Shown: in pieces, positions 1 to 13,833 of the stretch
Numbering within the stretch: position 1 is the stretch's first letter
Layout: each line of letters starts with the position of its first letter
DNA from: Kiritimatiellales bacterium
GTDB taxonomy: Bacteria > Verrucomicrobiota > Kiritimatiellia > Kiritimatiellales > Pontiellaceae
Direction: 5' to 3'
DNA length: 16,683 bases
NCBI GenBank assembly: GCA_013042165.1
Contig: JABDQT010000191.1
Span: 1 to 16,683 of the forward strand
Notes under the pieces: model-generated
Told to the model about the DNA's origin: nothing
The model's input: the letters and a program-made list of their open reading frames with translations, nothing else
Database searches by the model: none
Translations under genes and position numbers: made by a program

Positions 1-347
1 GCGATGGCCTCAATAACATCGCGGAAGCGAATCTGGGCACCGATCCAAAATTGGTCGACACCGATGGAGATGGCTTCTCGGATCTGGCTGAAATGCAGTT
101 CGGCAGCAATCCGCTTGACGAAACCAGTATGCCCGACAGCGATATGGTTATTCTGACCGCAGCCGAAATCGGCTACCTGCCGAAGGGCACGAACACGATG
201 GTCACGTTCCAGGCCGTGGACAGCCTGTCCGAGGGCAGCTGGTTCGACGTTGGTTCGGCGCACACCAATGCCGGCGACTGGGTCTACCAGTTCGACAGCA
301 TGCGGACGAACGGCAACAGCCGCTTTTACCGCGCCATCGAGGAATAA
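1..347 (+). CDS. C-terminal part of a secreted protein with thrombospondin type 3 repeats (partial, 5' end outside window)
   Basis: The open frame runs in from the left edge (first full codon at position 3) and stops at TAA 345-347, so only about the last 114 residues are visible. They begin DGLNNIAEANLGTDP and continue with DTDGDGFSDLAEMQFGSNP, which are two tandem TSP3-like calcium-binding repeats (DxDGDGxxD loop followed by a xxGxNPxD turn). About 65 residues follow, rich in beta-prone and aromatic residues, ending NSRFYRAIEE. Short C-terminal modules ending near FYR are common on large exported proteins of PVC bacteria; this is recalled, not checked. The protein is probably secreted or surface-exposed, but its catalytic or binding domain lies outside the window, so no function can be given. 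A TTG at position 51 could be mistaken for a start, but the repeat upstream of it in the same frame shows the gene extends further left. Confidence 0.75.
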   Translation, partial: DGLNNIAEANLGTDPKLVDTDGDGFSDLAEMQFGSNPLDETSMPDSDMVILTAAEIGYLPKGTNTMVTFQAVDSLSEGSWFDVGSAHTNAGDWVYQFDSMRTNGNSRFYRAIEE

Positions 348-405: not shown

Positions 406-1812
406 ATGGACCGACTGACCAAAAAGAGTCTCTGCACATCCCTGTTCATCGCAGGGCTTTTTTTGGCTTTATGGCCCGTGCATGCCGAAGAGGAGGCAAC
501 GGCCGCAGAGGAAGCAAAGACCGTAGAGAAATCGAAGGGTGAATATTCGGGCTCGCTGCGTGCCACGTATGACTACCGGGGTTTAGGCAGCGACAGCGAT
601 CAGGACGTCTATGGCTACTTTCATTTTCGCGGCCGCGATCTCTCGGACGAGCACCTGGATATCTATCTCTCCGGTCGGTTGTCTGCCGACCTCGACGGAA
701 CCGGACGTTCCTCTGCAGCTGATCCGTTCATCAGTTTAAATGACACCTCGCGGGATGACGTAGCCAAAATTCTTCAACTGTATTTTGATGCGCACGACCG
801 GAAAAAGACCAAGTCATTGCGCGTCGGGAGACAATATGTGGATGTCGCCGATTATATCCAAATGGATGGATTGCAGGCCATGTTCCATGAGAGCAGGAAG
901 CTGGGCGGCCGCGCTTTTTTTGGTCAGCCGGTTAGCTATTACAGTTCGGTCTCGAGTGATTTATTCGGAGGCGTTTCGCTGGTCGGCACCCCCTGGAGCG
1001 GAAACCGCAGCCGGGTAACCTATGCCCGCTATGAGGATGATAGCGAAGGCGCCTCGGACGATCACTACTTTCTGGATGTCCGCCAGCAAATGAGCGAGGA
1101 GTTCCGTACCCGCGGTTATCTCTCGGTGATGAATGAGGATGTCCGCATGGGCGGGGTGGATTTTATCTACATATCGCTGGAGGAAAAAGTATTTGATGCC
1201 ACGGTGGGTGTGCGGCGGTGGGGGGACTACAAGGCCGAGACGCGGGCCTACTCTCCTTTATTCGATGTGCTGGGGGATCAGGAACCCTATAGCACGGCAT
1301 ATGGTCGGCTCACGACCGAGTTGCTGCCCTGGCTCTACCTTTCACCCGGCGCAATGATGCGCCGGCCCGACGATTCTGACGCCACGAATCGACGCTTCGA
1401 ACGCTATGATCTCAACTTTATTTTTGAGCCGTCGGATGCTCTGAGCGCATCGGTGGCGCTGGAATACTGGGACGTCGAGAACGACGACCGCTTTTTTGGT
1501 TTAAGCGGCGACATCCGTTACCGCTACCGCAAGCTGTGGGAGCTCTCGGTCGGAGCCGCCTATGTGGACTACACTTATAAGCAGCTTTCAGATGTTTCGG
1601 TGTTTACCGATGATGACCCCATTGTTCCGGTCATCGATCCGTTAGACGGCACTCGCGTGGAACGTTCGCCTAATGCGTTCACCTACTACCTTCGCGGTAA
1701 GTGGAATCTTTCTGAAAATACAGCGTTGCGCCTTTCCGGGGAAATCGAGGACGATAGCGATGAAGACGACCTCGGCTACCGGGTTCGCACATCCTTTGAG
1801 GTACGGCTGTGA
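406..1812 (+). CDS. Outer-membrane beta-barrel protein, cassette 1 (porin-like partner of a multiheme cytochrome)
   Basis: This 468-residue protein has a clear Sec signal peptide: MDRLTKK, a hydrophobic core, and a likely cut after VHA (residue 27). The mature part shows alternating hydrophobic/polar strands separated by acidic loops rich in Asp, Tyr and Arg, as in outer-membrane barrels. The segment LRVGRQYVDVADYIQMDG (about residues 138-155) resembles the GRQ...DG element of alginate-export/OprD-like barrels. The C-terminus is SFEVRL, without the usual terminal aromatic residue. It is a paralogue of the barrel at 7658-9055: DVADYI-MDG, LGGR-F-GQPVS-Y-S and GNRSR-TYARYEDD recur in the same order over the full length. 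Its stop codon overlaps the start of the 12-haem lipoprotein cytochrome, suggesting translational coupling. The start ATG is preceded by a weak AGAG ribosome site. It may be an electron-conduit sheath or a substrate porin; barrel fold is confident, role is inference. Confidence 0.8.
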   Translation: MDRLTKKSLCTSLFIAGLFLALWPVHAEEEATAAEEAKTVEKSKGEYSGSLRATYDYRGLGSDSDQDVYGYFHFRGRDLSDEHLDIYLSGRLSADLDGTGRSSAADPFISLNDTSRDDVAKILQLYFDAHDRKKTKSLRVGRQYVDVADYIQMDGLQAMFHESRKLGGRAFFGQPVSYYSSVSSDLFGGVSLVGTPWSGNRSRVTYARYEDDSEGASDDHYFLDVRQQMSEEFRTRGYLSVMNEDVRMGGVDFIYISLEEKVFDATVGVRRWGDYKAETRAYSPLFDVLGDQEPYSTAYGRLTTELLPWLYLSPGAMMRRPDDSDATNRRFERYDLNFIFEPSDALSASVALEYWDVENDDRFFGLSGDIRYRYRKLWELSVGAAYVDYTYKQLSDVSVFTDDDPIVPVIDPLDGTRVERSPNAFTYYLRGKWNLSENTALRLSGEIEDDSDEDDLGYRVRTSFEVRL

Positions 1813-2786
1813 ACATGAAACGCATAATCACGATTCTTTTCACTGGAAGTGTTCTTGTGCTGCTCTGCGGCTGCGACGAGGAGAAGTATCAACTCAAATT
1901 CAGCCACTATATCCACGTAACGGATAACGAAATGACTTGCGACGAGTGTCATGGTGAACCTGGAAGCGCTTCTTTCAATACCCTGAGCCACGACACCTGT
2001 ATCGACTGCCATGATGAGCCGGAAGCCAAGGAGATTACCCAGGAAGCCTGCGGCTACTGTCATCAGGAAAATGAGCAGCAACTGCTGCTGATGCTGATGG
2101 AAAGTGCAGATGAGACTACTCCTGCGGAAGTCAAAGACCCTGTGTTCATGCATACAGAGGCGTTGGCGGAACGTTGCGCGGAGTGTCATGGAGGGCTGAT
2201 GAATGAAGCTTTAACATCGGTGCCCAGGCTTTCGCGCGATGAAGTCATACAGATACGCAACGAAGCGCACGTGTCGGGAGAGGATTGCCTGACGTGCCAC
2301 GTCAACATGGATCGCTATCAGGAACCGGCTAATCACGACCACGCTTGGATGAAGCGCCATGGCCAGCTCGGCATGCAGTTCGATGCCGCGTGCAGCGTTT
2401 GCCACACGGAGGACTCCTGCACGGAATGCCACAGTGTCATGCAGCCGGCCTCGCACAATAATCTATTCCGGAGGCAGACGCACGGTGCCGTCGCCGCATG
2501 GGATCGCGCCAGCTGCCAGACCTGTCACGAAGAAGATTCCTGTCAGTCGTGCCATTCACAGACGCGTCCGAGATCCCACAATGCACGCTGGGGCGCCCCG
2601 GGGTTTAAGCCGGCCCATTGCATCGGTTGCCACAATACATCGACTGCTGGTGACGGCTGCGTGACCTGCCATGAGGGGGGCAATGATATTGCGTTGCACG
2701 AGAAGTACTGGGGCGGCGCCAGTTTTAATCATGACATACTAACGACAGAAAGTTGTTACATTTGTCATTGGTCGAAGACGCCGTAG
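1809..2786 (+). CDS. Dodecaheme (12 CxxCH) c-type cytochrome lipoprotein, cassette 1
   Basis: The protein (325 residues from GTG 1809; ATG at 1815 is an alternative start two codons later) carries a lipoprotein signal, VLVLLCGC with Cys22 as the likely lipidated residue, followed by DEE. Twelve CxxCH haem-attachment motifs have their first Cys at residues 44, 64, 81, 123, 160, 195, 204, 236, 245, 271, 284 and 316, and many additional His can act as distal ligands (FSHYIHV, SHNN, THG). From residue 195 the motifs come in close pairs, CxxCHxxDSCxxCH, followed by PxSHN. It should be exported, lipidated and loaded with haem by the ResB/CcsA system encoded downstream. GTG and the barrel TGA overlap by 4 bases (GTGA), so the two are probably coupled. 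It is the shorter paralogue of the 20-haem protein at 9052-10428. An electron-transfer role follows from the haem density; donor and acceptor are unknown. Confidence 0.9.
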   Translation: MNMKRIITILFTGSVLVLLCGCDEEKYQLKFSHYIHVTDNEMTCDECHGEPGSASFNTLSHDTCIDCHDEPEAKEITQEACGYCHQENEQQLLLMLMESADETTPAEVKDPVFMHTEALAERCAECHGGLMNEALTSVPRLSRDEVIQIRNEAHVSGEDCLTCHVNMDRYQEPANHDHAWMKRHGQLGMQFDAACSVCHTEDSCTECHSVMQPASHNNLFRRQTHGAVAAWDRASCQTCHEEDSCQSCHSQTRPRSHNARWGAPGFKPAHCIGCHNTSTAGDGCVTCHEGGNDIALHEKYWGGASFNHDILTTESCYICHWSKTP

Positions 2787-2803
2787 CAAAACGGCTGGCG
2801 GTG

Positions 2804-3466
2804 TTACAGTTTGCGGACGGTGCAACCGCTTTCAGCGACATCCATTTCGAAGGCCTTGATCCCTTTTGAGCCGCGCACCGTGACTGTAGCAGGTCCGGAA
2901 ACGGTCAGTTCGAATTCCAGAGCCTGCAGGTCGGCCGGCGAGCCTTCGATCATCCCGAGGTTTCCCTTTGCATTGACCACAACATCGACGTTGGAATAGG
3001 CAGACTCGGTCACCGGTTTCAACGACAGGATCGTGGTTTCAGATTTACTCGGAACCCGGATGACCAAGGTAATCATCTCCGGTAATGTTTGGCTGTCAAC
3101 AGGGTCGAATCCAAAGCGGGCGATAAGACCGGAACCGGTTCGAATTACCGACGGTTCCTGCAGGAACAGGGTTTCCGGTTCTTCAGCGGATTTGGTTACG
3201 GAAGTCGCCGCTTTGATCGGTGTCTTTTTTGCGCCCGCTCGAGAATCGCCCGTTTTGAAAAAATCCAGCTCGCTTCGTGCAGTGGAAAGTTGATCGCGAA
3301 GATGGCTGTTTTTTTCTGCGAGCACCGCCAGCTTTTCATTTGTACCGGACTGGTTTCGCCAGAGCATGGCAACCACCAGAAGCAATACGGCAACGGCAAC
3401 AAAGCTGAGAAGGGTAAGCAGGTTATATCTGCTTTTTTCGGTGATTTGAGGGGCTGGAGGATTCAT
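2804..3466 (-). CDS. Single-pass membrane protein with coiled coil and beta-rich C-terminal domain, unknown function
   Basis: This 220-residue protein has a short N-terminal tail, one transmembrane helix at about residues 16-36 (LLTLLSFVAVAVLLLVVAMLW), a predicted coiled coil at about 42-72 (NEKLAVLAEKNSHLRDQL...), a Lys/Ala/Pro linker to about 98, and a C-terminal region (100-220) of alternating hydrophobic residues that looks like a small beta-sandwich. I do not recognise the family. It is transcribed opposite to its neighbours and ends 17 bases from the stop of the 12-haem cytochrome, so it is unlikely to be part of either operon. The start shows no clear Shine-Dalgarno sequence. The topology suggests an inner-membrane anchor presenting a periplasmic domain, with the N-terminus inside. 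Codon periodicity and the ordered domain layout support a real gene. Confidence 0.6.
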   Translation of the reverse strand: MNPPAPQITEKSRYNLLTLLSFVAVAVLLLVVAMLWRNQSGTNEKLAVLAEKNSHLRDQLSTARSELDFFKTGDSRAGAKKTPIKAATSVTKSAEEPETLFLQEPSVIRTGSGLIARFGFDPVDSQTLPEMITLVIRVPSKSETTILSLKPVTESAYSNVDVVVNAKGNLGMIEGSPADLQALEFELTVSGPATVTVRGSKGIKAFEMDVAESGCTVRKL

Positions 3467-3559
3467 CCGCAGAATATGGATAAGATGATGAAGGCAGTCA
3501 AGATTGGTTATGTGCGGCGGGGTATGAAACGGGTTTTGCCCTTAAGATTATGATAATTG

Positions 3560-3587
3560 TCGACATTTGGCAGAGTGTACGTACTAT
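3560..3587 (+). promoter_or_regulatory. Possible sigma-70-type promoter for the lipoprotein-resB-ccsA operon
   Basis: TCGACA at 3560-3565 (5 of 6 to TTGACA) is separated by 16 bases from TACTAT at 3582-3587 (4 of 6 to TATAAT). It sits in the 152-base gap between the divergent genes ending at 3467 and starting at 3619, and would give a leader of about 25 bases containing the AAAAAGGGA ribosome site. Such matches occur by chance, so this is tentative. Confidence 0.35.
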
Positions 3588-3618
3588 TCCCCGCATTAAA
3601 TTAAAAAGGGACGATTAT

Positions 3619-4200
3619 ATGAAATACGCAGCCTTTGGCCTGATTTCTTTGTTGTTTATAGCCGGATGCGGGCAGGAACAACCGGTCACCTATGAAGCCC
3701 CCAAGGAAAAGGCCGCACCGCCGGTTCAGCAGATGGGATCGAAGGCGGACATGGACGCCGTAAGTGCGGCCCATGCGGCGATGAACGCTCATACCCCGGA
3801 TGTCGGATTTGCTGCCGAGTTGCCTGAAGGATGGACGGAAAAGGCCGGCTCCGGAATGCGGAAGGTCAGTTATGCCATCGCAGGCACCTCGATCGACTTT
3901 TATCTTATTTCTCTGACAATGGGTGACGTTCCAAGCAACGTCAACCGCTGGCGCGGGCAGGTGGGTTTGCCGCCCGCCTCCGAGGATGAAATTGCCGCAG
4001 ACGTTCAGGTTTTGCAGGCCGACGATCATTCAGTGAATTATATCGAGATCTACAATGATGAAGGCGGCACGGGCATCATTGCGGCCATCGTGGATCTGGC
4101 TCCGAAATACTGGTATTTCACCGCCAAGGGCTCGGTTGAGGAACTCAAGGCGCATGCCTCGGACATCAGGAGCTTCCTCGATTCTGTGAAGATTAATTGA
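3619..4200 (+). CDS. Small lipoprotein encoded directly upstream of resB-ccsA; unknown function
   Basis: The chosen ATG at 3619 follows a purine-rich ribosome site (AAAAAGGGA at 3602-3610) and starts directly with a lipoprotein signal, MKYAAFGLISLLFIAGC, giving a 193-residue precursor with lipidated Cys17; an in-frame ATG at 3550 would add an unlikely 23-residue leader. After a Pro/Ala/Lys linker to about residue 60 comes a compact domain with PEGW (69-72), NVNRWRGQVGLPP (107-119) and a C-terminal helix SVEELKAHASDIRSFLDSV. I recall similar NVNRWRGQ-GLPP sequences in uncharacterised Planctomycetes and Verrucomicrobia proteins but cannot verify it. It precedes resB by 49 bases with no visible terminator, so all three are likely one transcript. 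No CxxCH is present, so it is not a cytochrome. A role in assembling or supporting cytochromes is suggested only by position. Confidence 0.8.
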   Translation: MKYAAFGLISLLFIAGCGQEQPVTYEAPKEKAAPPVQQMGSKADMDAVSAAHAAMNAHTPDVGFAAELPEGWTEKAGSGMRKVSYAIAGTSIDFYLISLTMGDVPSNVNRWRGQVGLPPASEDEIAADVQVLQADDHSVNYIEIYNDEGGTGIIAAIVDLAPKYWYFTAKGSVEELKAHASDIRSFLDSVKIN

Positions 4201-4249
4201 ATGCTTCCGCCGCGGTGCGGTCATAACGGATCACAGAAAGCGCTATGCG

Positions 4250-5668
4250 ATGAAGAAAATTTTCGATCTATTCCTTTCCCTCAAGCTGACGGTTATCCTG
4301 CTTGCGCTGAGCATGGTGCTGGTGTTCGCCGGTACGCTGGCGCAGGTTGATAAAGGCATCTGGACGGTGATGGACCAGTATTTCCGTTGCATCATCGCAT
4401 GGATCGAGCTGCCCGTCTTTTTCCCGCGCCACCTGAATATTCCCAATGTGCGGATTCCCTTTCCCGGCGGCTTTCTGATCGGGTTTCTGCTGACGATCAA
4501 TCTGCTGGCCGTGCACATGTCCAACTTCAAGGTCTTGGCCACGGGCGGGCGCCGGGTCGCCGGCTTCATGGTGCTTCTGCTGGGCATACTCGTTACCGTG
4601 GGCGTCATGTTCGGCTGGGGAACGGCGCCGGTGGCGGCGACGGAAAGCGATGCCTTCTGGCGGGTCTTCCTGCGGCTGGGCCGCGGAACGCTGGCGGCCG
4701 TGGTGCTCTACGGGGCCTGCGTGCTGCTCTATCGCAAACGCGCCGGCATGGTGCTGCTGCATGGCGGCATCCTTTTCCTGCTGATCGGCGAATTTGCAAC
4801 GGCGCAGTTTGCCGTCGAGGCCCGGATGACGATCAAGGAGGGCGAGACCGTCAACTATCTCGACCGTTCGCAGGAGCTGGAGCTGGCTTTTATCGAATCT
4901 TCCAACTCCGATTATGACAAAGTGACCGTACTTCCCCAGCGCATGCTCAGGGAGGGCAAGGTCATCGAATCCGATGTGCTGCCTTTCAAGGTCAAGGTGC
5001 ACCGCTACATGGTCAACTCGAACCGGCCGCAACCGCTGGAGTCAATGTCCGAAGCAGCAAAGGCCGCTTATCCGCAGTACGAAGGCTACGGCTCGCGCCT
5101 CTATGTGGCCGAACAGCGCGAAGTGAGCGGGGCAACCGGCGCCATAAACGCCCCCGCGGTCGATGTGGAACTGCTCGATCGGAACAGCGGGGCATCGCTC
5201 GGGCGTTACGTCATGAGCCTCTGGTTTTACCCCAACTTTGTGAATCGAGCATGGGACATGCCGACCAACTTCAGTATCGATGGCCGCGATTTCACATCCT
5301 ACTTCCGTTTCAAGCGCGAATACCTCGCCTCGCCGAGCGGCAGCCCCTACTCGATCAAGCTGCTCGACTTTGTGCATGAAAAATATGAAGGCACGCAGAT
5401 GCCGAAGGACTTCGCCAGCCGGATTCTGCTCGTCAACGAAGGCGACGACGTGGAGCGCGAGCTGCGCATCTGGATGAACAACCCGCTGCGCTATGCGCGC
5501 CGCACCTTTTATCAGTCGGGCTATCTGCCCGACGACAGCGGCACGGTGCTGCAGGTCGTGCGCAACGATACCTGGATGATTCCCTACCTCGCCTGCATGA
5601 TTGTTTTCGTCGGCATGACCGCCCAGTTCGTCCAGTCGCTGGGACGCTACCTCAGGAGGGACGCCTGA
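4250..5668 (+). CDS. resB: Cytochrome c biogenesis protein ResB (Ccs1/CcsB), System II
   Basis: This 472-residue inner-membrane protein is half of the System II haem-delivery and cytochrome c synthetase complex, which ligates haem to CxxCH motifs on the periplasmic side. The start is MKKIFDLFLSLKLTVILLALSM, the usual ResB opening with LKLT before the first membrane helix (about 13-31). Further helices lie at about 74-90, 104-123 and 147-185, the last pair carrying the conserved HGG (His171). A large periplasmic domain (about 187-440) follows, ending in the ResB signature PLRYARRTFYQSGY and a final helix (about 442-462). Length fits the family. Its TGA overlaps the ATG of ccsA by one base, typical of a coupled ResB-CcsA pair. 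The location between two multiheme cytochrome cassettes suggests it serves them, although it may serve all cytochromes c of the cell. Confidence 0.93.
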   Translation: MKKIFDLFLSLKLTVILLALSMVLVFAGTLAQVDKGIWTVMDQYFRCIIAWIELPVFFPRHLNIPNVRIPFPGGFLIGFLLTINLLAVHMSNFKVLATGGRRVAGFMVLLLGILVTVGVMFGWGTAPVAATESDAFWRVFLRLGRGTLAAVVLYGACVLLYRKRAGMVLLHGGILFLLIGEFATAQFAVEARMTIKEGETVNYLDRSQELELAFIESSNSDYDKVTVLPQRMLREGKVIESDVLPFKVKVHRYMVNSNRPQPLESMSEAAKAAYPQYEGYGSRLYVAEQREVSGATGAINAPAVDVELLDRNSGASLGRYVMSLWFYPNFVNRAWDMPTNFSIDGRDFTSYFRFKREYLASPSGSPYSIKLLDFVHEKYEGTQMPKDFASRILLVNEGDDVERELRIWMNNPLRYARRTFYQSGYLPDDSGTVLQVVRNDTWMIPYLACMIVFVGMTAQFVQSLGRYLRRDA

Positions 5669-7458
5669 TGCCAAAGCCATTCATTCATCTTATTGCAATC
5701 CTGTTTGCCGCATGGTTCTTCCAGATGGGCGTCAAGCCTCCCGAGGAAACGGCAGCCGACTTTCAGTTGAATGCCTTTGCGCATCTGCCCGTCAAGTTCG
5801 AGGGGCGCAAGAAACCAGTAGATACCATGGCGCGCAACCTGTTGACCGTGCTTTCGGGCAAGCAGTCGGTACGGGCCGAAGACGGCACAAAAACCAGTGC
5901 CGTGCAGTGGCTGCTGGACAACATGTCCGGTCGGCCGGAGGCGCTGGATTATCCGGTGATCCGCATCGAGAACCTCGATGTGTTGACGAACCTCGGGCTG
6001 GAGGAGCGCAAGCGCCTGCGCTATTCCTATCGTGAACTGCTGCCCAATCTGGGGAGGCTTGATTCGGCGGCACGCTCCGCATATGCCAAGCAGGACCGCA
6101 ACCGCGACCTCTATGACCGGCAGGTTATCAAGTTGGCCAACAAGCTCTACCTCTTCCAGAATGTGCTCGGCTCGTTCGAGGACCCCTCCGCAATTCCCGC
6201 GGAGCAGCTGATGGCCACGGCTCAGCGCTACATGCGGCTCGAAGGCATGTCCATTCCCCTGATGATTCCGCCAACCGCCGGAAACGAGCGGTGGCGGCCG
6301 CTGATGAGCACGCTGCTTGCGGCGCATCCCGCCATGACGGGCGCCGCGGCCGGGCACGATATTGCCGTTGAGCCGCTGGCGGTGCATATGGGCGTCATGA
6401 TGGGGGCCTACCGCGAAGGCAACGTCGACCTGTTCAACAGCGAGCTGATGGAATACGGAAATCTTCTGCAAGCGGAAAATCCCGAGGCGTTTCACAAAAT
6501 GTCGTTCGAGGTCTTCTACAACCGCCTGAGCACCTTCATGAAATCCGCCCAGTTGTATCTGCTGGTCTTTGTACTCAGTTGTTTCGGCTGGCTGTTCCGC
6601 AAGGACGGCTTGCTGTCCGCCGCCCGTACGCTGATGATCTTCGCCTTCATACCGCATACGTTCGCCATCATTGCACGCGTGTTTCTTTCCGGTTATCCGC
6701 CGGTGACCAATCTCTATTCCTCGGCCATCTTTATCGGCTGGGCCGCGGTCGGGGCCGGCATTGTGATTGAACTGGGCTTCCGCAGGAGGGCGGCCGGCAT
6801 CGGCAATATGGTGGGGGGCACCGCCGGCTTCGCGACGCTGCTGATCGCCCACTTTCTCGCGGGCGACGGCGACACGATGGAGCAGATGCGCGCCGTGCTG
6901 GACACGCGCTTCTGGCTGGCGACACATGTGATCACCATCACGCTGGGCTACATGGCCACCTTTGTTTCGGGAACCATCGCGGTCTTCTATGTATTTTCCG
7001 GCCTGCTGACCCGACGGCTCGATGATGAGACGGCGGACGGCATGTATCGCATGATGTACGGCACCACCTGTTTTGCGCTGTTGCTCAGTTTTGTGGGCAC
7101 GGTGCTCGGCGGCTTGTGGGCCGACGATTCCTGGGGCCGTTTCTGGGGGTGGGATCCAAAGGAAAACGGGGCGCTGCTGATCGTGATCTGGAATGCGATC
7201 ATGCTCCACGCCCGGTATGGTAAAATGGTTCAACGCCGCGGCTTCGCGGTCATGGCGATCTTCGGCAACGTGGTCACGGCCTGGTCGTGGTTCGGGGTCA
7301 ACCAGCTCAGCGTCGGGCTGCACTCCTATGGCTTTACCGATTCGGCCAGTTTCTGGCTGATGATTTTTGTTCTGTCGCAGCTGGTCTTTGTCGCCGCAGG
7401 GTTGCTGCCTGTGCGCATCTGGCGCAGCCGGCCCGGTGCCGATACCGCCTGCCGTTAG
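5668..7458 (+). CDS. ccsA: Cytochrome c biogenesis protein CcsA (ResC), System II, with long N-terminal periplasmic extension
   Basis: This 596-residue protein is the haem-handling half of the System II synthetase. The C-terminal half (about 293-582) holds several membrane helices and the tryptophan-rich WWD segment LWADDSWGRFWGWDPKENGALL (483-504) that presents haem to ResB and the apocytochrome. Candidate haem-ligand histidines are His330 (FIPHTFAII), His420 (LATHVITITLGYM) and His551 (VGLHSYGF); the YPPVTNLYSS motif (343-352) is also characteristic. The N-terminal part has one helix (about 5-21) and then about 270 residues predicted periplasmic, absent from compact CcsA proteins of about 320 residues and of unknown role. 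The start is well placed: AGGAGG at 5653-5658, and TGATG coupling with resB. It ends 199 bases before the cassette 2 barrel. Confidence 0.93.
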   Translation: MPKPFIHLIAILFAAWFFQMGVKPPEETAADFQLNAFAHLPVKFEGRKKPVDTMARNLLTVLSGKQSVRAEDGTKTSAVQWLLDNMSGRPEALDYPVIRIENLDVLTNLGLEERKRLRYSYRELLPNLGRLDSAARSAYAKQDRNRDLYDRQVIKLANKLYLFQNVLGSFEDPSAIPAEQLMATAQRYMRLEGMSIPLMIPPTAGNERWRPLMSTLLAAHPAMTGAAAGHDIAVEPLAVHMGVMMGAYREGNVDLFNSELMEYGNLLQAENPEAFHKMSFEVFYNRLSTFMKSAQLYLLVFVLSCFGWLFRKDGLLSAARTLMIFAFIPHTFAIIARVFLSGYPPVTNLYSSAIFIGWAAVGAGIVIELGFRRRAAGIGNMVGGTAGFATLLIAHFLAGDGDTMEQMRAVLDTRFWLATHVITITLGYMATFVSGTIAVFYVFSGLLTRRLDDETADGMYRMMYGTTCFALLLSFVGTVLGGLWADDSWGRFWGWDPKENGALLIVIWNAIMLHARYGKMVQRRGFAVMAIFGNVVTAWSWFGVNQLSVGLHSYGFTDSASFWLMIFVLSQLVFVAAGLLPVRIWRSRPGADTACR

Positions 7459-7555
7459 CCTCGGCTTTACCCGGATGATTGCATATTTATCTGCTCCATC
7501 CGTCTGTCTGCTTCAGTAGACTAAATCCAAAGTTGCAGGGTGGGTATAAGGCTGA

Positions 7556-7583
7556 TTGAAATTCCGCTGTTCAGGCGTACCAT
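7556..7583 (+). promoter_or_regulatory. Possible promoter for the second barrel-cytochrome cassette
   Basis: TTGAAA at 7556-7561 is spaced 16 bases from TACCAT at 7578-7583. It lies in the 199-base non-coding gap 7459-7657 between ccsA and barrel 2, the only gap long enough for an independent promoter in this part. The -10 match is weak (4 of 6), so confidence is low. No gene or terminator hairpin is visible elsewhere in this gap. Confidence 0.3.
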
Positions 7584-7586
7584 AGC

Positions 7587-7608
7587 TCCGCTTTATTATA
7601 CGAGCGGA
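7587..7608 (+). promoter_or_regulatory. Small inverted repeat in the leader of cassette 2, possible operator or hairpin
   Basis: TCCGCT (7587-7592) and AGCGGA (7603-7608) are exact reverse complements flanking an AT-rich 10-base centre TTATTATACG. The element falls just downstream of the tentative -10 at 7578-7583. It could bind a dimeric repressor, or the AT-rich centre could itself be a -10 element. Six-base arms are short enough to arise by chance. Confidence 0.25.
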
Positions 7609-7657
7609 TCTATGCCCGGAACGGATCGCATTTCTACCGGCCTAAAGAGACCTCCCT

Positions 7658-9055
7658 ATGACAGCGGTTTTGTCCAGTCTGCAACACAAGGGAAAAAGGG
7701 GGCTGAACCCGGCGCCCCTCTCCGTTCGGCTGTTTTTCATATGCCTTCTCCTGCAGGCGGTTTCCGTCCGGGCGTGGCAATCCGATAAAGCGGTTTATTC
7801 AGGATCATTGAGAACCATCTACGACTATCGCGTTCAGGGAGACGACGAGGATCACGATGGCTATGCCTATTGGCGCGTAGGCGCCCGAAATATGGCTTCC
7901 GGGCATGTCGATGTCTACACCTCCGGCCGGGCGCATGACGATCTGGATGGTTCAGCCCCTTCGGGCGGCGGAGATCCTTTCCTGGGCCTTCAGGACACAT
8001 CCCGGCGCGATGAGATCCGGTTGCTGCAGTTTTATATGGAACTGCACGACGCAAAAAATAAAATGGCTCTGCGAATCGGTCGGCAATATGCGGATGTGGC
8101 CGATTATATTCATATGGATGGCGCGCAGGCGATACTGTATGAGCGCGGACGCCTGGGTGGACGTCTGTTTGCTGGACAGCCGGTCAGTTTTTATTCTTCG
8201 ACGTCAGGGGATCTTTTTGCGGGCGCATCGCTGGTGGGAAGGCCCTGGAAAGGGAACCGAAGCAGGATGACCTATGCCCGCTATGAGGACGATGACCGCG
8301 CTGTCGCTGACGACCACTGCTTTATCGATGTCCGGCAGCAGGTGTCCGACGCGTTCCGCGCCCGTGGCTATCTTTCGGTGATGAACGATGATGTCCGCAT
8401 GAGTGGCGGCGACGTCTATTATACGTCTCGCGGGGATGAGGTGTTCAGTGTACGGGCAGGGATTCGTCGTTGGGGAACCTACGATGCTCAGACGCGCGTC
8501 TATTCGCCTCTGCTGCAAACGCTGGGCGGGCAGGAGCCTTATACGACAGCCTATGGTCGCTTTACCCGCGAGCTGCTGCCCTGGCTTCACCTGGCTCCCG
8601 GAATCTATATCCGTTATCCGGATGCGGATAATTCATCCAACCGACGCTATGAGCGCTATAACCTGGGGCTGATCTTCCGCCCGGAAGATGCTTTAAAGGC
8701 GAACATCGGACTCGAGTATTGGGATGTGGAAGACGGGGGCCGTTTTTCCGGCCTATCCGGTCAGGTTGAATATGAACATCGCAAGCTTTGGGAAATCGCC
8801 GCGGGTGCCGCATATCTGGATTATACGTATTATCGTTTTTCCGACTTTTCCGTTTCCGCTGACGGCGGCGGTATTGTTGCCGTCGAGGACGGCACCCGGA
8901 CGGAAATCTCCCCGGATACCTTCACCTATTTTGTGCGGGGCAAATGGAACGTGAGTCGTAATCTGGCGCTGCGGCTTTCCGGCGAGGTCGAGGATGACAG
9001 TGAAGAGGCGGACCTTGGCTACCGGGTGCGTGCAACAGTCGAGGTGCGAATGTGA
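7658..9055 (+). CDS. Outer-membrane beta-barrel protein, cassette 2 (paralogue of the barrel at 406-1812)
   Basis: This 465-residue protein has an unusually long N-terminal region before its signal core (RLFFICLLLQAVSVRA, likely cut after residue 39); no later ATG is available, and the ATG at 7658 has only a weak upstream AAAGAG. The mature part aligns with the first barrel from start to end: YSGSLR-YDYR, GRQYADVADYIHMDG-QA, LGGR-FAGQPVSFYSS, GNRSRMTYARYEDD, GYLSVMNDDVRM, QEPYTTAYGR-T-ELLPWL, LEYWDVED. Strands are short and amphipathic, loops acidic. It ends ATVEVRM, again lacking a terminal Phe/Trp/Tyr. The TGA overlaps the GTG of the 20-haem cytochrome by 4 bases, the same junction as in cassette 1, so the two cassettes arose by duplication of a whole pair. 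Function is inferred: a sheath for electron transfer or a porin supplying a substrate to the cytochrome. Confidence 0.8.
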   Translation: MTAVLSSLQHKGKRGLNPAPLSVRLFFICLLLQAVSVRAWQSDKAVYSGSLRTIYDYRVQGDDEDHDGYAYWRVGARNMASGHVDVYTSGRAHDDLDGSAPSGGGDPFLGLQDTSRRDEIRLLQFYMELHDAKNKMALRIGRQYADVADYIHMDGAQAILYERGRLGGRLFAGQPVSFYSSTSGDLFAGASLVGRPWKGNRSRMTYARYEDDDRAVADDHCFIDVRQQVSDAFRARGYLSVMNDDVRMSGGDVYYTSRGDEVFSVRAGIRRWGTYDAQTRVYSPLLQTLGGQEPYTTAYGRFTRELLPWLHLAPGIYIRYPDADNSSNRRYERYNLGLIFRPEDALKANIGLEYWDVEDGGRFSGLSGQVEYEHRKLWEIAAGAAYLDYTYYRFSDFSVSADGGGIVAVEDGTRTEISPDTFTYFVRGKWNVSRNLALRLSGEVEDDSEEADLGYRVRATVEVRM

Positions 9056-10428
9056 AAGTGGACCGTTTTATTATATCCATGTCGGCTGTTGCCTTCCTGT
9101 TGCTCCTCTGTGGGTGCGAGGAAGATGACCATCGGCTGAAGTTCAGTCATTTCATTCATGTCGAGGACAATGGAATGGAGTGCGCGGATTGTCATGGAGG
9201 GGCTGTTGACGGCCACTTTCTGCCTATCACGCATGAAACCTGTTCGGATTGTCATGAGGAGGCGGAGAGCGAGACAATCGCAACGGAAACCTGCGGATAT
9301 TGTCATGCCGAATCGAAGCCGGCGGATCTCATGAGGCGGCCCGTGGAGAGTGAAGTGAAAGCGCCGGGCGTGTTTGTGCACTCCGCCGCGCTGGCGGAAA
9401 GCTGCCGGGATTGCCACGGCACGCTGATGGCCGAAAAGTTTTCCGTGGTTCCGGACATGAACCAGTATGAGCGGTTGCGTATCCGTGAAGCGGCCCACGG
9501 CACGGGAATGGATTGTGCAGTGTGCCACGCGGATCTTTCTCGTGATGAGGAGCCGGATAGCCATGGCGCGCTCTGGATCCGGCAACATGCCATGCCTGGC
9601 GGGCAGGATGAAGCTGTTTGCAGCATTTGTCATACGGAAGATTCCTGCCGGGCGTGCCACAGTGTCATGCAGCCCGCTTCTCATAACAACCGATGGAGGC
9701 TGGATACGCATGGTGCTTTTGCTGATTGGAACCGGGAAGGATGCATGGTGTGTCATGAGGAAGACTCCTGCTCTTCCTGTCATTCGCAGGTTAAGCCTCG
9801 TTCTCATACGGTTCTCTGGATTGAAACGCACGGACTTGGAGAATCCGGCCGCTGCATGGTGTGCCATGAGCCGGAGGGGTGCAATGCCTGTCATTCAGAA
9901 CAGGCTCCGAGTTCCCACAATGGTTCCTGGGAAGCAACCCATGGGCTGGGGGACCTCGACAGCTGCTATGTTTGTCACACTCCTGATACCTGTACCTCCT
10001 GTCATGCAGGGGAAACTCCAGGATCGCATTCATCCGGTTCGTGGTTGGAAACGCATGGGCTCGGGGCTCTCGACAACTGCAGTTTCTGTCATGTACCGGA
10101 TTTTTGCGCCGCATGTCATCAGACCACGCCTCCTGCTTCTCACGGCGGGACATGGGAATCGACCCACGGGTTTGGAGGTTTGAGCAACTGCTACGTATGT
10201 CACGAGCCCGAAAGCTGTTCGGCCTGCCATCAGACCACCCGTCCGTCCTCTCACACAGGATCGTGGGATGAATTGCACTGCACGCCCTGTCATATGAATC
10301 CAGATTCCAACTGCATCCTCTGTCATGAAAACGCCAACGATATTGTAGCGCCGCACGAAGCCGAATGGCCTTCATCTCATTCCAATAGAGGTTATAACAA
10401 CCAGACCGATTGCATGCGGTGTCATTAG
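9052..10428 (+). CDS. Icosaheme (20 CxxCH) c-type cytochrome lipoprotein, cassette 2
   Basis: The GTG start at 9052 overlaps the barrel stop (GTGA). The 458-residue precursor has a lipoprotein signal ending LLLLCGC (lipid Cys22), then EEDDHRLKFSHFIHV, close to the cassette 1 cytochrome. Twenty CxxCH motifs begin at residues 44, 64, 81, 118, 155, 190, 199, 231, 240, 268, 277, 305, 314, 343, 352, 380, 389, 410, 421 and 454, about one haem per 23 residues. Hemes 6-17 sit in six similar modules of the form CxxCHxxxxCxxCH-x5-7-PxSH-x4-5-W-xxx-HG, giving extra His for bis-His ligation. The final residue of the protein is the His of the last CxxCH. It should be lipidated, exported and matured by ResB/CcsA. 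Haem density suits a long linear electron carrier at the outer membrane. The nearest comparison is the 12-haem paralogue at 1809-2786; no enzymatic domain is visible. Confidence 0.92.
   Translation: MKVDRFIISMSAVAFLLLLCGCEEDDHRLKFSHFIHVEDNGMECADCHGGAVDGHFLPITHETCSDCHEEAESETIATETCGYCHAESKPADLMRRPVESEVKAPGVFVHSAALAESCRDCHGTLMAEKFSVVPDMNQYERLRIREAAHGTGMDCAVCHADLSRDEEPDSHGALWIRQHAMPGGQDEAVCSICHTEDSCRACHSVMQPASHNNRWRLDTHGAFADWNREGCMVCHEEDSCSSCHSQVKPRSHTVLWIETHGLGESGRCMVCHEPEGCNACHSEQAPSSHNGSWEATHGLGDLDSCYVCHTPDTCTSCHAGETPGSHSSGSWLETHGLGALDNCSFCHVPDFCAACHQTTPPASHGGTWESTHGFGGLSNCYVCHEPESCSACHQTTRPSSHTGSWDELHCTPCHMNPDSNCILCHENANDIVAPHEAEWPSSHSNRGYNNQTDCMRCH
9742..10278 (+). repeat. Tandem two-haem modules of about 111 bases inside the 20-haem cytochrome gene
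   Basis: Five consecutive in-frame modules start with Cys codons at 9742, 9853, 9964, 10078 and 10189, with spacings of 111, 111, 114 and 111 bases up to the fifth module, which is shorter (90 bases to the next haem Cys at 10279). Each encodes CxxCHxxxxCxxCH, a PxSH turn, Trp and HG, for example HGLGDLDSCYVCH and HGLGALDNCSFCH. DNA identity between modules is partial, so the expansion is not very recent. Compared with the 12-haem paralogue, four modules are extra. Confidence 0.85.
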
Positions 10429-10542: not shown

Positions 10543-11706
10543 ATGAAACAGGGGTTTTTCGAAAAGCTGGTTGATCGGCTCGATCATCTGGACAAAGGCA
10601 GTCTCCAGACCTATTTCCTGCGGCTGGCGCATGAAAAGGGTTTGATGGAAACCATCTTTCAGGCGTTGGAAGAGGGGATCATCGTACTCGATCCTGCGGC
10701 GCAGATCAGCTACGCCAACCGCGCGGCCGAGCAGTTTCTCGGCTTCCGGCTCGATAATGCCGCCGGCACGAAGATCAGCCGCTACCTGAAGGATATCCAT
10801 TGGGATCTGGTTCTCGATCTCGATGAGTATGAATGGAGCCAGTTGGTGCGGCGCGAGATCGAAGTCACCTATCCGCAGCACCGCTTCATGGAATTTTACG
10901 TCGTGCCGCTCGCGGCGGTCGATGAGAATGAGGAAGGGGCGGTCGTGATTTTCCGGGATGTGACCCGCGAACGCGAAATTACAGCCGATTCGATCGAGTC
11001 CGAGCGGCTGCATGCCCTGAGCCTGCTGGCGGCCGGCGTGGCCCACGAAATCGGAAACCCGCTCAACTCGATCAATATCCATCTTCAGCTGCTGGACCGA
11101 GAAATCGGTTATCTGGAGAACGAACAGGCCCGTAGCGAACTCAAGGAACTGGTCGAAGTTTCGCGCAAGGAGGTGGGGCGACTCGATACGATTATCCGGC
11201 AGTTTCTGAAAGCCCTGCGCCCGTCGCTTCCCGAGCGCAAGCCTCATAAGATGGCCGAGCTGGTTCAGGAAACACTGGATGTGATGAAGCATGAAATCAA
11301 AGATCGCCGCATGCTGGTCGAGACCGATTTTCCCGATCATATGCCGCGGGTCGCTGTTGATGAGGCCCAGGTCAAGCAGGTCTTTTTCAATGTCATCAAG
11401 AATGCGCTGCAGGCCATGTCGGATGGAGGTATTCTCAAGGTGGAATCGCTGCTGTCCGACCGCTTTGTCAGTGTGGTGTTCGAGGATAACGGCGAGGGGA
11501 TTGATCCCGAAAAACTGGGCGCGATCTATGAGCCGTACCATACCACCAAAGCCGAAGGCACCGGCCTCGGGATGATGATTGTCCAGCGCATCATGCGCGA
11601 TCATGGCGGCGAAATTGAAATCAACTCTGAGCAGGGGCGGGGAACGCGCCTGACGTTGCGGTTCCCGCGCGAGGATGCAAGGTTGAATCTGCTCGAAGCA
11701 CCTTAG
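10543..11706 (+). CDS. Soluble PAS-domain sensor histidine kinase (NtrB/AtoS type)
   Basis: This 387-residue protein has no signal peptide or membrane helix, so it is cytoplasmic. A PAS domain at about residues 33-142 (ALEEGIIVLDPAAQISYANRAAEQFLG ... VIFRDVTRERE) is followed by the dimerisation/phosphoacceptor helix with His168 in AAGVAHEIGNPLNSI, and an HATPase domain with N box FFNVIKNALQAM (281-292), G1 DNGEGI (315-320), F box PYHTTK (331-336) and G2 GTGLGM (339-344). All catalytic motifs are intact. Its likely partner is the NtrC-type regulator at 12131, separated only by the decayed IVP element at 11707-12129. The signal sensed by the PAS domain is unknown. No good Shine-Dalgarno precedes the ATG. 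The gap 10429-10542 shows a T6 run (10435-10440) but no convincing terminator stem. Confidence 0.9.
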   Translation: MKQGFFEKLVDRLDHLDKGSLQTYFLRLAHEKGLMETIFQALEEGIIVLDPAAQISYANRAAEQFLGFRLDNAAGTKISRYLKDIHWDLVLDLDEYEWSQLVRREIEVTYPQHRFMEFYVVPLAAVDENEEGAVVIFRDVTREREITADSIESERLHALSLLAAGVAHEIGNPLNSINIHLQLLDREIGYLENEQARSELKELVEVSRKEVGRLDTIIRQFLKALRPSLPERKPHKMAELVQETLDVMKHEIKDRRMLVETDFPDHMPRVAVDEAQVKQVFFNVIKNALQAMSDGGILKVESLLSDRFVSVVFEDNGEGIDPEKLGAIYEPYHTTKAEGTGLGMMIVQRIMRDHGGEIEINSEQGRGTRLTLRFPREDARLNLLEAP

Positions 11707-12130: not shown

Positions 12131-13510
12131 ATGAAACCGGTTGTTTTAATTGTCGACGATGAAAAGAGCGCGCGCGACGGACTGGTGCGTGCGCTGCAGC
12201 GGGACTACCGCGTCTTCGCGGCCGAAAACGGAACGTCCGCGCTGGAGGTGCTGGCCAGCCAGAGCGTGGATGTGCTGCTGAGTGATGTCCGTATGCCGGG
12301 GATGGATGGGATCACACTCATGCAACGTGCGCTGGCCAACCATCCCGAGCTGACATGCATTATCCTGACGGCCTACGGCGACGTCGACGTGGCAGTCGAG
12401 GCCATGAAGCAGGGTGCTACGGATTTCATGACCAAACCCATCAATCTCGACAAACTGGAGCTGGTGCTGGGGCGGGTGCTGAAAGCAAAAAAAATCGAGC
12501 TCGAAAACGAGCAGCTCAAGGCCCAGCTCGACACCAAGTATGGGCTGGAGAATATCATTGGACGCTCGGCGGCGATGCAGGAGGTTTTCGATACGATCCG
12601 GCAGGTGGCGAACTCGCGTGCAACGGTTTTGCTCCAGGGCGAGAGCGGTACCGGCAAGGAGCTGGTGGCGAAGGCGATTCAGCATCTGAGTCCGCGGAAC
12701 AAGGGGCCGTTTGTGGCGGTGCATTGCGCAGCCCTTTCGCAGAATCTTTTAGAGAGTGAACTGTTTGGCCATGAGAAGGGGGCGTTTACCGGCGCGATGG
12801 AGCGACGCATCGGCCGCTTTGAAAAGGCGGATGGCGGCACACTCTTTCTCGATGAAATCAGCGAGATCGATGCATCTGTACAGGTTAAGATCCTGCGCGC
12901 ACTGGAAGAACGGCAGATCGAGCGCGTGGGAGGAGATACGCCCGTGGATGTGGATACGCGGTTGATTGCCGCCACCAATCGCGATCTGCAGGCGATGGTG
13001 GATGAGGGCGACTTCCGTGAAGATCTGTTTTACCGGCTTTATGTGGTGGTCATCACGTTGCCTCCTTTAAGAGAGCGGGAGGATGATATCCTGTTGCTGC
13101 TAAATCATTATCTGGCGGTCTTTAACAAAGAAAACGGAAAGCAGATTGAAGGATTTACACCGGCGGCGTACAACCTGCTTTCGAGTTACGCTTGGCCGGG
13201 CAATATCCGTGAACTGCGCAATCTGGTGGAGCGCATGGTGGTACTGGCGCGCGGCAAGGTGCTGGATGTGAAGGATGTTCCGATACAGGTGCGTGATGCG
13301 GCCAGCGGCGGTTCAGCGATCAAAGCGGATGCCGAGTTGACGGTGGATGAAATGGAAAAGCGGATGGTGATCCAGGCCCTGGAAAAAACCGGGGGCAACC
13401 GGACCAAAGCCGCCGAGAAGCTGGGGATCAGCCGCCGCACGCTGCACCGGAAATTGAACCAGTATGGATTAGGAAAGGAAACCCAAGCCGGCAAGGAGGA
13501 ACAGTCATGA
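12131..13510 (+). CDS. NtrC-family sigma-54-dependent response regulator
   Basis: This 459-residue activator has three domains. The receiver domain (1-120) carries the acidic pocket Asp9/Asp10, phospho-acceptor Asp52 (SDVRMPGMDG), Thr80 and Lys102. The AAA+ domain (about 142-375) shows Walker A GESGTGKE (170-177), the sigma-54 contact loop GAFTGA (217-222), Walker B GGTLFLDE (235-242) and the arginine-rich FREDLFYRL. A Fis-type helix-turn-helix lies at about 405-446 (NRTKAAEKLGISRRTLHRKL). All motifs are intact, so it should activate sigma-54 promoters when phosphorylated, most likely by the kinase at 10543. It overlaps the downstream carbinolamine dehydratase by 4 bases (ATGA). I found no convincing -24/-12 site in the window's gaps, so its targets cannot be named; the multiheme cassettes are only a guess. 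Confidence 0.95.
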   Translation: MKPVVLIVDDEKSARDGLVRALQRDYRVFAAENGTSALEVLASQSVDVLLSDVRMPGMDGITLMQRALANHPELTCIILTAYGDVDVAVEAMKQGATDFMTKPINLDKLELVLGRVLKAKKIELENEQLKAQLDTKYGLENIIGRSAAMQEVFDTIRQVANSRATVLLQGESGTGKELVAKAIQHLSPRNKGPFVAVHCAALSQNLLESELFGHEKGAFTGAMERRIGRFEKADGGTLFLDEISEIDASVQVKILRALEERQIERVGGDTPVDVDTRLIAATNRDLQAMVDEGDFREDLFYRLYVVVITLPPLREREDDILLLLNHYLAVFNKENGKQIEGFTPAAYNLLSSYAWPGNIRELRNLVERMVVLARGKVLDVKDVPIQVRDAASGGSAIKADAELTVDEMEKRMVIQALEKTGGNRTKAAEKLGISRRTLHRKLNQYGLGKETQAGKEEQS

Positions 13511-13833
13511 GTGATTATGCCCGAAAACATTGTAAAGCCTGCGAAGGAGGTGTTCCTCCGCTCTCGCCTGAGCAGGCGGATGCCATGCTGGCGGATCTCG
13601 ATGGATGGACCCGCGAGGGTAGCGAAATCAGGAAAACCTTCGCGTTTCGAAATTACTACCAGACCATGGCCTTTGTGAATGCGGCGGCCTATGTATCGCA
13701 TCGCGAAGATCATCATCCGGACATGCTGGTGGGCTACAAGACCTGCGCCGTCACCTACAGCACGCACTCAATCGGGGGGCTTTCGGAAAACGATTTCATC
13801 TGTGCCGCCAAGCTGGACCGTCTGCTCGATTAA
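13507..13833 (+). CDS. 4a-hydroxytetrahydrobiopterin (pterin-4a-carbinolamine) dehydratase
   Basis: This 108-residue protein matches the small PCD/DCoH family in length and motifs: CKACEGG near the N-terminus (residues 9-15), LDGWT (31-35), and the active-site signature EDHHPDMLVGY...THSIGGLSENDF, with His69, His70 and His87 as the expected catalytic histidines. The enzyme dehydrates 4a-hydroxytetrahydropterin after aromatic amino acid hydroxylation; some bacterial members instead work with molybdopterin or other pterins. No phenylalanine hydroxylase is present in the window. It is translationally coupled to the NtrC-type regulator by an ATGA overlap, and its stop overlaps the stop of the convergent hybrid kinase gene (TTAA at 13830-13833). 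Confidence 0.93.
   Translation: MSDYARKHCKACEGGVPPLSPEQADAMLADLDGWTREGSEIRKTFAFRNYYQTMAFVNAAAYVSHREDHHPDMLVGYKTCAVTYSTHSIGGLSENDFICAAKLDRLLD

Follow-up and report, generated by a model that had tools for sequence, protein, structure and literature searches.

Paired barrel and multihaem lipoprotein genes, with an OcwA-like nonahaem cytochrome upstream, suggest an outer-membrane electron conduit in a Kiritimatiellales bacterium

We analysed a contig of 16,683 nucleotides (JABDQT010000191.1, assembly GCA_013042165.1) from a Kiritimatiellales bacterium, a member of a little-studied, oxygen-avoiding group. The window, by which we mean the whole of this stretch, is the entire contig C157 of a 1.85-Mb assembly that is 86% complete. 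It carries two copies of a gene pair encoding an exported beta-barrel and a multihaem lipoprotein cytochrome and, at its first bases, the end of a gene for a nine-haem (nonahaem) cytochrome related to OcwA. We consider it likely that these genes encode a three-part outer-membrane conduit for extracellular electron transfer, of the porin-cytochrome kind, in which the barrel would be the sleeve, the lipoprotein the haem wire and the OcwA-like protein the surface reductase. The genes represent a real and conserved system that probably conducts electrons at the outer membrane.

The two pairs lie on the forward strand on either side of resB-ccsA, and the coordinates given for them in a preliminary description of this DNA were confirmed. 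In cassette 1, the gene of barrel 1 (positions 406 to 1812) is followed by that of cytochrome 1 (1809 to 2786), a lipoprotein (GC followed by DEE) with 12 CxxCH motifs; in cassette 2, barrel 2 (7658 to 9055) is followed by cytochrome 2 (9052 to 10428), a lipoprotein (GC followed by EED) with 20. The GTGA overlap between the two genes of each cassette and the motif counts were likewise reproduced. Identity between the cassettes is 56% for the barrels (465 aligned columns) and 44% for the cytochromes (330), and barrel 2 scored 672.7 bits against profile A1.

The association of the two genes was then surveyed across loci (numbered L; genomes, contigs and relatives are numbered G, C and P). A cytochrome gene of this kind lies directly downstream of all 16 barrel genes examined, at 15 loci, so the pairing is not due to chance, and the frequent occurrence of the barrel without the cytochrome, which by the preliminary description would count against a conduit, was not seen. 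In 14 of the 16, the first start codon of the cytochrome gene gives a four-base overlap of the two genes (ATGA, GTGA or TTGA); in L013, with a 31-base overlap ending in TTGA, and L044 (ATGA), an internal start gives the same four-base overlap. The cytochrome still directly follows the barrel in L046, where the barrel is distant (93 bits) and comes from outside the class. Trees of the barrels and the cytochromes co-diverge, with a Mantel r of 0.88 for 32 pairs, of which two are from the window and 30 were matched by eye on equal length of the longest contig, not exhaustively, with the same contig inferred.

Carriers are few. The barrel was detected in 15 of the 345 genomes of the class, a count that includes G165 at only 19 bits, which was treated as no match; the nonahaem protein was detected in 13 of the 345 (E≤1e-30, two candidates scored per genome), 12 of them shared with the barrel. 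The barrel without the nonahaem gene was seen in G024 (masked) and G018 (contig end), and the reverse in G167 (contig edge). In a sample of the phylum, 11 of 387 genomes had the barrel, one of them outside the class. From these counts, the conduit is rare and patchy. Pontiellaceae bacterium B1224 (L010) carries it.

The preliminary description had read each cassette as using only one lipoprotein cytochrome per barrel. The pairing indeed looks like an outer-membrane conduit, but a third gene, lying outside the coordinates of that description, had been missed: the one-cytochrome appearance of cassette 1 is an artefact, because the contig start cuts the nonahaem gene. What is left in the window (3 to 347, forward strand, 114 aa) is the C-terminal tail, an Asp-rich TSP3-type repeat and a final domain, both haem-free; the remainder of the gene lies off the contig. 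By blastp, the tail matched the ends of exported proteins of 729-761 aa with 8-9 haems that are encoded directly upstream of the barrel in six loci, with an identity of 58-66% to L009-L011 and 31-42% to L012, L014 and L015, and it aligned to positions 641-754 of profile A2, built from six nonahaem proteins (E 1.8e-40, 139.9 bits). Of the 12 other readable loci, 10 (L009-L012, L014, L015 and L041-L044) have a nonahaem gene immediately upstream of the barrel; L008, where this stretch is masked, and L039, which ends inside the barrel, were left out of the count. In cassette 2, ccsA lies upstream and no A2 match was found in 7459 to 7657.

A near-complete nonahaem gene (739 aa, 9 CxxCH) is present on another contig of the same genome, C19, where it runs off the contig end. 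Positions 13471-13734 of this locus (L038, G000:C19) correspond to 3-266 of the window, and over these 264 bases the two sequences agree at only 91%; a single continuous stretch of C19 and the window was therefore rejected, and the C19 gene is either another copy (paralogy) or a strain variant. Two other arrangements of nonahaem genes were seen: two in tandem in G167 (L040, 1-4497), and a head-to-tail fusion of two copies, with 18 haems, in P0238-P0240.

The nonahaem profile A2 found OcwA (6i5b_A) as its best match among known structures (E 2.8e-19), followed by 'multiheme cytochrome cf' (6qvm, E 2.8e-8), which we take to be OmhA of Carboxydothermus. The relatives of all three proteins were drawn from the candidates sharing the most words with the query. 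Among the best 120 of 1363 nonahaem relatives, 112 have nine CxxCH motifs, four have eight, one has seven and three have 18. Structure 6I5B is OcwA, the terminal reductase on the surface of Thermincola potens, which reacts with iron oxide and shuttles and whose haems 2 and 5 are open, each lying under a pair of histidines (PMC6703420). In 118 sequences (117 listed relatives and the C19 protein), registered by hand on the OcwA profile alignment, histidine occupies the two positions over haem 2 in 84 and 111 sequences and those over haem 5 in 118 and 97. An N-terminal hydrophobic segment was recognised by eye, a lipobox-like site is present in only 2 of the 117 relatives, and an Asp-rich TSP3-like motif lies near the C terminus in 108. 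Given this motif and the immunoglobulin-like domains of the L015 protein, a location at the surface is favoured; the nonahaem protein is probably an exported terminal reductase acting there.

The lipoprotein has the features expected of a wire. In a histidine alignment of 57 chosen rows, 51 of them with 12 haems, the motif histidines of the 12 haems are kept in all 57 rows, apart from one position kept in 56, and exactly 12 further histidines outside the motifs are invariant, each in 57 of 57. Since there are exactly 12 extra invariant histidines for 12 haems, bis-histidine ligation of all 12 fits, which suggests a wire without open haems, unlike the nonahaem protein. Among the best 120 of 267 lipoprotein relatives, to which the following counts refer, the number of histidines is at least twice the number of haems in all 120, and a lipobox is present in 113.

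The N-terminal module of the lipoprotein resembles ActA of Alternative Complex III as well as the dodecahaem 3ov0 and Hmc, and a match to QrcA is below the cut-off; ActA and QrcA are subunits of inner-membrane complexes, and 3ov0 is presumably a soluble protein. Cytochrome 2 matches PF22113 (MtrC/MtrF domain II/IV) with 43.8 bits against a cut-off of 30; the nonahaem protein (59.6) and a small tetrahaem protein (32.3) also exceed it, and the match was therefore taken as generic. With the MtrA/DmsE decahaem model TIGR03508, cytochrome 1 reached 19.5 bits against a cut-off of 192.2, and with the OmcA/MtrC model TIGR03507, 12.9 against 209.3; for cytochrome 2, neither model was among the matches listed.

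The length of the lipoprotein varies in steps of two haems. The haem number is 12+2n in 117 of the 120 relatives, with 12, 14, 16, 18, 20, 22 and 24 CxxCH motifs in 66, 13, 4, 11, 15, 7 and 1 of them, respectively; P0170 (10), P0234 (13) and P0151 (15) fall outside the series, and the overall range is 10-24. The spacing of the motifs follows a near-constant core of 20, 17-18, 36 or more, 37, 35, 9, 32 and 9 residues, and the end is similar too. Added haems come in pairs, as repeats of two kinds: most of the long forms have type A (about 24-25, 13); type B (about 28, 9) is that of cytochrome 2, where extra copies are joined to the core, and of a small number of relatives, which have 13, 14 and 16 haems. 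In the trees, the second pair of the window branches deep, away from the type B pairs with 14 and 16 haems, so lengthening by type B may have occurred more than once. The repeat copies of cytochrome 2 are 61-75% identical in DNA to the reference copy and are thus old. A tandem-repeat artefact of assembly was rejected for this gene on the same identity values, and Tandem Repeats Finder listed no repeat.

For the barrel, the AlphaFold2 (AF2) model of barrel 1 has 22 strands (residues 46-467) and no plug, with a predicted local distance difference test score (pLDDT) of 75. Such a lumen would be wide enough in principle, and nothing pointed to the too-narrow lumen that had been named as a threat to the conduit reading. 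In fold searches, the model aligned to receptor barrels from about residue 160 onward, and its neighbours, ushers and an alginate exporter among them, are generic large barrels; MtrB was not among the 50 matches listed in either search, which excludes nothing. The barrel profile found no better than E 0.61 among the sequences of solved structures. None of 25 barrels matched an MtrB/PioB-named family in Pfam or NCBIfam at E≤1, each of which presumably holds such a model, in agreement with the preliminary description, which had seen no relation to MtrB. By the tests run, the barrel is not MtrB-like and the wire not MtrA-like; in its function, the system would resemble a porin-cytochrome conduit. 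Conservation is higher at inward than at outward positions of the barrel (3.24 versus 2.70 bits), and little weight is given to this because the parity was picked by hydrophobicity, which itself tracks conservation. A role as a TonB receptor or in alginate export was rejected, since a plug is absent from the model and no such family was matched at E≤1. The most distant barrel relatives, P0115-P0117, have 26-35% identity, and two of them are named from Thermodesulfobacteriota/Deltaproteobacteria.

Genes whose products could supply electrons occur on C19 and, in relatives, near the conduit. On C19, upstream of the nonahaem gene, lie hemA and the genes for a c554-type tetrahaem protein, an Rrf2 regulator, a NapC/NirT-type six-haem protein and a b561-linked 11-haem protein, and each exceeds its Pfam cut-off (Cytochrome_C554 for the tetrahaem, Cytochrom_NNT for the six-haem, and Ni_hydr_CYTB with 11 haems). 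A single stretch, L041, encodes the nonahaem protein, the barrel, a 20-haem lipoprotein, a c554-type tetrahaem protein, ResB, CcsA and a NapC/NirT-type six-haem protein, together with two multihaem proteins that have b561-type domains, of which one passes the model cut-off and the other does not. Judged from its genes, L041 holds the set expected of a path from quinol to the surface. The multihaem protein encoded beside the barrel is the lipoprotein; the four-haem c554-type gene is nearby and not adjacent.

We propose that electrons would pass from menaquinol to the inner-membrane NapC-type six-haem protein, the b561-linked 11-haem protein or both, and then to the periplasmic c554-type tetrahaem protein; in several relatives the genes for these supply cytochromes lie close to the conduit, and here they lie on C19. 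The lipoprotein from the overlapping gene, as a bis-histidine haem wire filling or docking in the 22-strand plug-free sleeve, would carry them through the outer membrane. The OcwA-like nonahaem protein, encoded directly upstream in cassette 1, would act as the terminal reductase at the cell surface, with Fe(III)/Mn(IV) minerals, humic quinones or shuttles as possible acceptors. Cassette 2, which lacks an upstream nonahaem gene and has the longer wire of 20 haems, would be an old copy that co-diverged.

Several observations weigh against this proposal. The barrel matched no known conduit-barrel model in the libraries searched, and the AF2 model of cytochrome 1 is poor (pLDDT 59, predicted template-modelling score 0.32, from 57 rows). 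No nonahaem tail was found upstream of the barrel in L013, where 266 bases are readable, or in the distant L046 (694 bases); in the L013 genome, a nonahaem gene is present at the edge of another contig. The co-divergence of barrel and cytochrome could reflect species descent. With regard to physiology, Pontiella type strains are reported to reduce ferric citrate and, with anthraquinone-2,6-disulfonate (AQDS) added, MnO2, whereas reduction of amorphous MnO2 alone was detectable only for Kiritimatiella glycovorans, by a mechanism that the authors call unclear; the latter organism reduces Fe(III) and AQDS without any c-type cytochromes (PMC7356697). The barrel and the lipoprotein were not found in the Pontiella-genus genomes G005 and G022, which appear to be those Fe(III)/AQDS-reducing isolates and, apparently, type strains. 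The reduction phenotype of Pontiella is therefore not explained by the conduit, and these non-carrier strains are natural controls for comparison with carriers.

The nonahaem protein allows a different reading of the whole locus. It could be a reductase for soluble nitrogen or sulfur compounds, of the NrfA, MccA or c554 type and located in the periplasm or on the cell surface, with the barrel as a substrate porin and the lipoprotein as the electron donor. Among the matches of profile A2 are NrfA, MccA and octahaem nitrite reductases, two relatives (P0241 and P0321) are named 'ammonia-forming cytochrome c nitrite reductase' in their source records, and the C19 protein just passes the NrfA-type Pfam model Cytochrom_C552 (25.3 versus 24.1 bits), although the L010 and L015 proteins are below the cut-off. 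OcwA itself shares its fold with enzymes of the nitrogen and sulfur cycles, and it reduces nitrite slowly (PMC6703420). We regard this explanation as unlikely: all of the enzyme matches are weaker than those to OcwA and 6qvm, CxxCK occurs at none of the nine sites in the 118 aligned sequences, the Asp-rich motif and the immunoglobulin-like domains suggest a location at the surface, and, in our judgement, a wire of 12-24 haems seems excessive for a periplasmic donor.

The other two alternatives concern the roles of the barrel and the lipoprotein. The barrel could export or anchor the nonahaem protein or the lipoprotein, with electrons crossing elsewhere; this would agree with the ushers and the alginate exporter among its fold neighbours and with the need of the nonahaem protein, which has a hydrophobic N terminus and rarely a lipobox-like site, for a way out. 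The fold neighbours are generic, however; the barrel gene overlaps the gene of the wire-type cytochrome and not that of the nonahaem protein, and cassette 2 has kept barrel and wire with no nonahaem gene upstream, so that we think a mere exporter very improbable. The lipoprotein, in turn, could be held in the inner membrane, crossing the periplasm or linked to quinol, with a loose or indirect association with the barrel. In Escherichia coli, Asp at position +2 keeps lipoproteins in the inner membrane, and 64 of the 113 lipoboxes have Asp there; the match of the N-terminal module to ActA and, below the cut-off, QrcA points the same way. The +2 signal is not uniform, though, with Lys, Glu, Asn or Arg in 46 of the 113, the other best matches of the module are the soluble dodecahaem and Hmc, and the partner gene of the lipoprotein is the barrel in every case surveyed; there seems to be very little chance that this explanation is correct. 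A conduit through the outer membrane remains our preferred reading.

Known systems share its logic in part. MtrCAB of Shewanella and MtrAB/PioAB likewise combine a barrel, a multihaem wire and a surface reductase. MtrB is a 26-strand barrel (PMC12133095), whereas 22 strands are modelled here, and, compared with MtrAB, the wire is a lipoprotein that is not MtrA/DmsE-like by score and the large partner is OcwA-like. The Geobacter Omb/Oma/Omc and ExtABCD/EFG conduits resemble the present one in having barrels with 12-haem cytochromes and duplicated clusters; by their descriptions, they encode a periplasmic multihaem protein and one or more separate surface lipoproteins (PMC6148476), whereas the multihaem protein adjoining the barrel here is itself a lipoprotein. 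Nearest to cassette 2 is OmcKL of Geobacter and HotSeep-1, described as a porin and an extracellular cytochrome with no periplasmic cytochrome gene alongside; as described there, the set lacks a nonahaem reductase (PMC10553843). In related bacteria, He et al. (2017; PMC5615132) reported a Verrucomicrobia porin-multihaem system, in which a porin, predicted to have 20 or more transmembrane motifs, adjoins a cytochrome with eight haem sites, predicted to be periplasmic, sometimes together with an extracellular multihaem protein; the adjacent cytochrome here is a lipoprotein, mostly with 12-24 haems. With OmcKL and this Verrucomicrobia type published, the earlier claims of a separate conduit type, and of a group in which such systems have seldom been described, were not supported. 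OcwA shares with the present protein its nine haems and both His-His motifs, mostly kept here, and its role as a terminal reductase is known (PMC6703420); it is a surface protein of a Gram-positive bacterium, whereas the protein here has one more domain at its N terminus and an Asp-rich repeat at its C terminus, and its gene adjoins that of an outer-membrane barrel. Literature searches covered this conduit, OcwA with porins, and Kiritimatiellales or Pontiella with cytochromes; among the open-access papers listed, none describes the conduit.

The remaining genes of the window surround the cassettes. A 220-aa protein encoded on the reverse strand (2804 to 3466), convergent with cassette 1, has by eye an N-terminal transmembrane segment and a coiled coil. 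It had no match in a Pfam scan of the window proteins, in which ResB, Cytochrom_C_asm and Cytochrome_C7 domains were found and barrels 1 and 2 had no significant match; with tblastn, it matched above 60 bits at 10 of the 13 loci compared and not at L015, L038 or L046. It is a possible unrecognised partner of the conduit. A 216-aa putative lipoprotein (3550 to 4200, forward strand) had no match at any of the 13 loci. The maturation genes follow on the forward strand: a resB-like gene (4250 to 5668; PF05140, E 1.7e-15) and a ccsA/ccsB-like gene (5668 to 7458; PF01578, E 1.4e-21), whose product has a long N-terminal extension and matches TIGR03144 (E 4.3e-37, 128 bits) below the cut-off of 187.6. 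These had been described as a dedicated maturation unit. No second ResB or PF01578 match was found in the 86%-complete assembly; as the only such pair found, resB-ccsA may serve all c-type cytochromes of the genome, and a dedicated role is unproven.

Downstream of cassette 2, domain searches identified a PAS histidine kinase (10543 to 11706) and an NtrC-type sigma-54 response regulator (12131 to 13510), both on the forward strand, and, on the reverse strand, a hybrid histidine kinase (13830 to 16337) that combines a family-3 solute-binding sensor domain with a PAS domain and a receiver. By its position, the kinase possibly regulates the region, and the sigma-54 regulator is its possible partner. 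In L008, a cassette is followed by the 220-aa gene, the histidine kinase, the sigma-54 regulator, a pterin-dehydratase gene and the hybrid kinase. Compared with L008, the block made up of the 216-aa gene, resB, ccsA, barrel 2 and cytochrome 2 (3550 to 10428) is additional in the window, where it separates the 220-aa gene from the kinase. The kinase and the regulator are 86% and 88% identical, respectively, to their L008 copies, whereas the barrel and the cytochrome are only 60-65% identical, which suggests that the conduit diverges fast.

If the conduit reading is correct, the architecture is new in that the barrel falls outside the conduit-barrel family models searched and an OcwA-type terminal reductase is joined to a Gram-negative barrel. 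A further idea, which we put forward tentatively and hold slightly more doubtful than probable, is that of a length-tunable cable: a fixed core and end cap would have received zero to six two-haem inserts from two repeat units on separate occasions, the sleeve staying constant and the cable delivering to an OcwA-type reductase. The two-haem ladder from 12 to 24 haems on the same core would be a natural series for relating wire length to the rate of electron transfer. If the idea holds, evolution sets the reach of the cable, across the periplasm or beyond the barrel, and the OcwA-type reductase, otherwise characterised from a Gram-positive bacterium, could be one module used with both envelope types, with the sleeve and wire as its Gram-negative adaptor.

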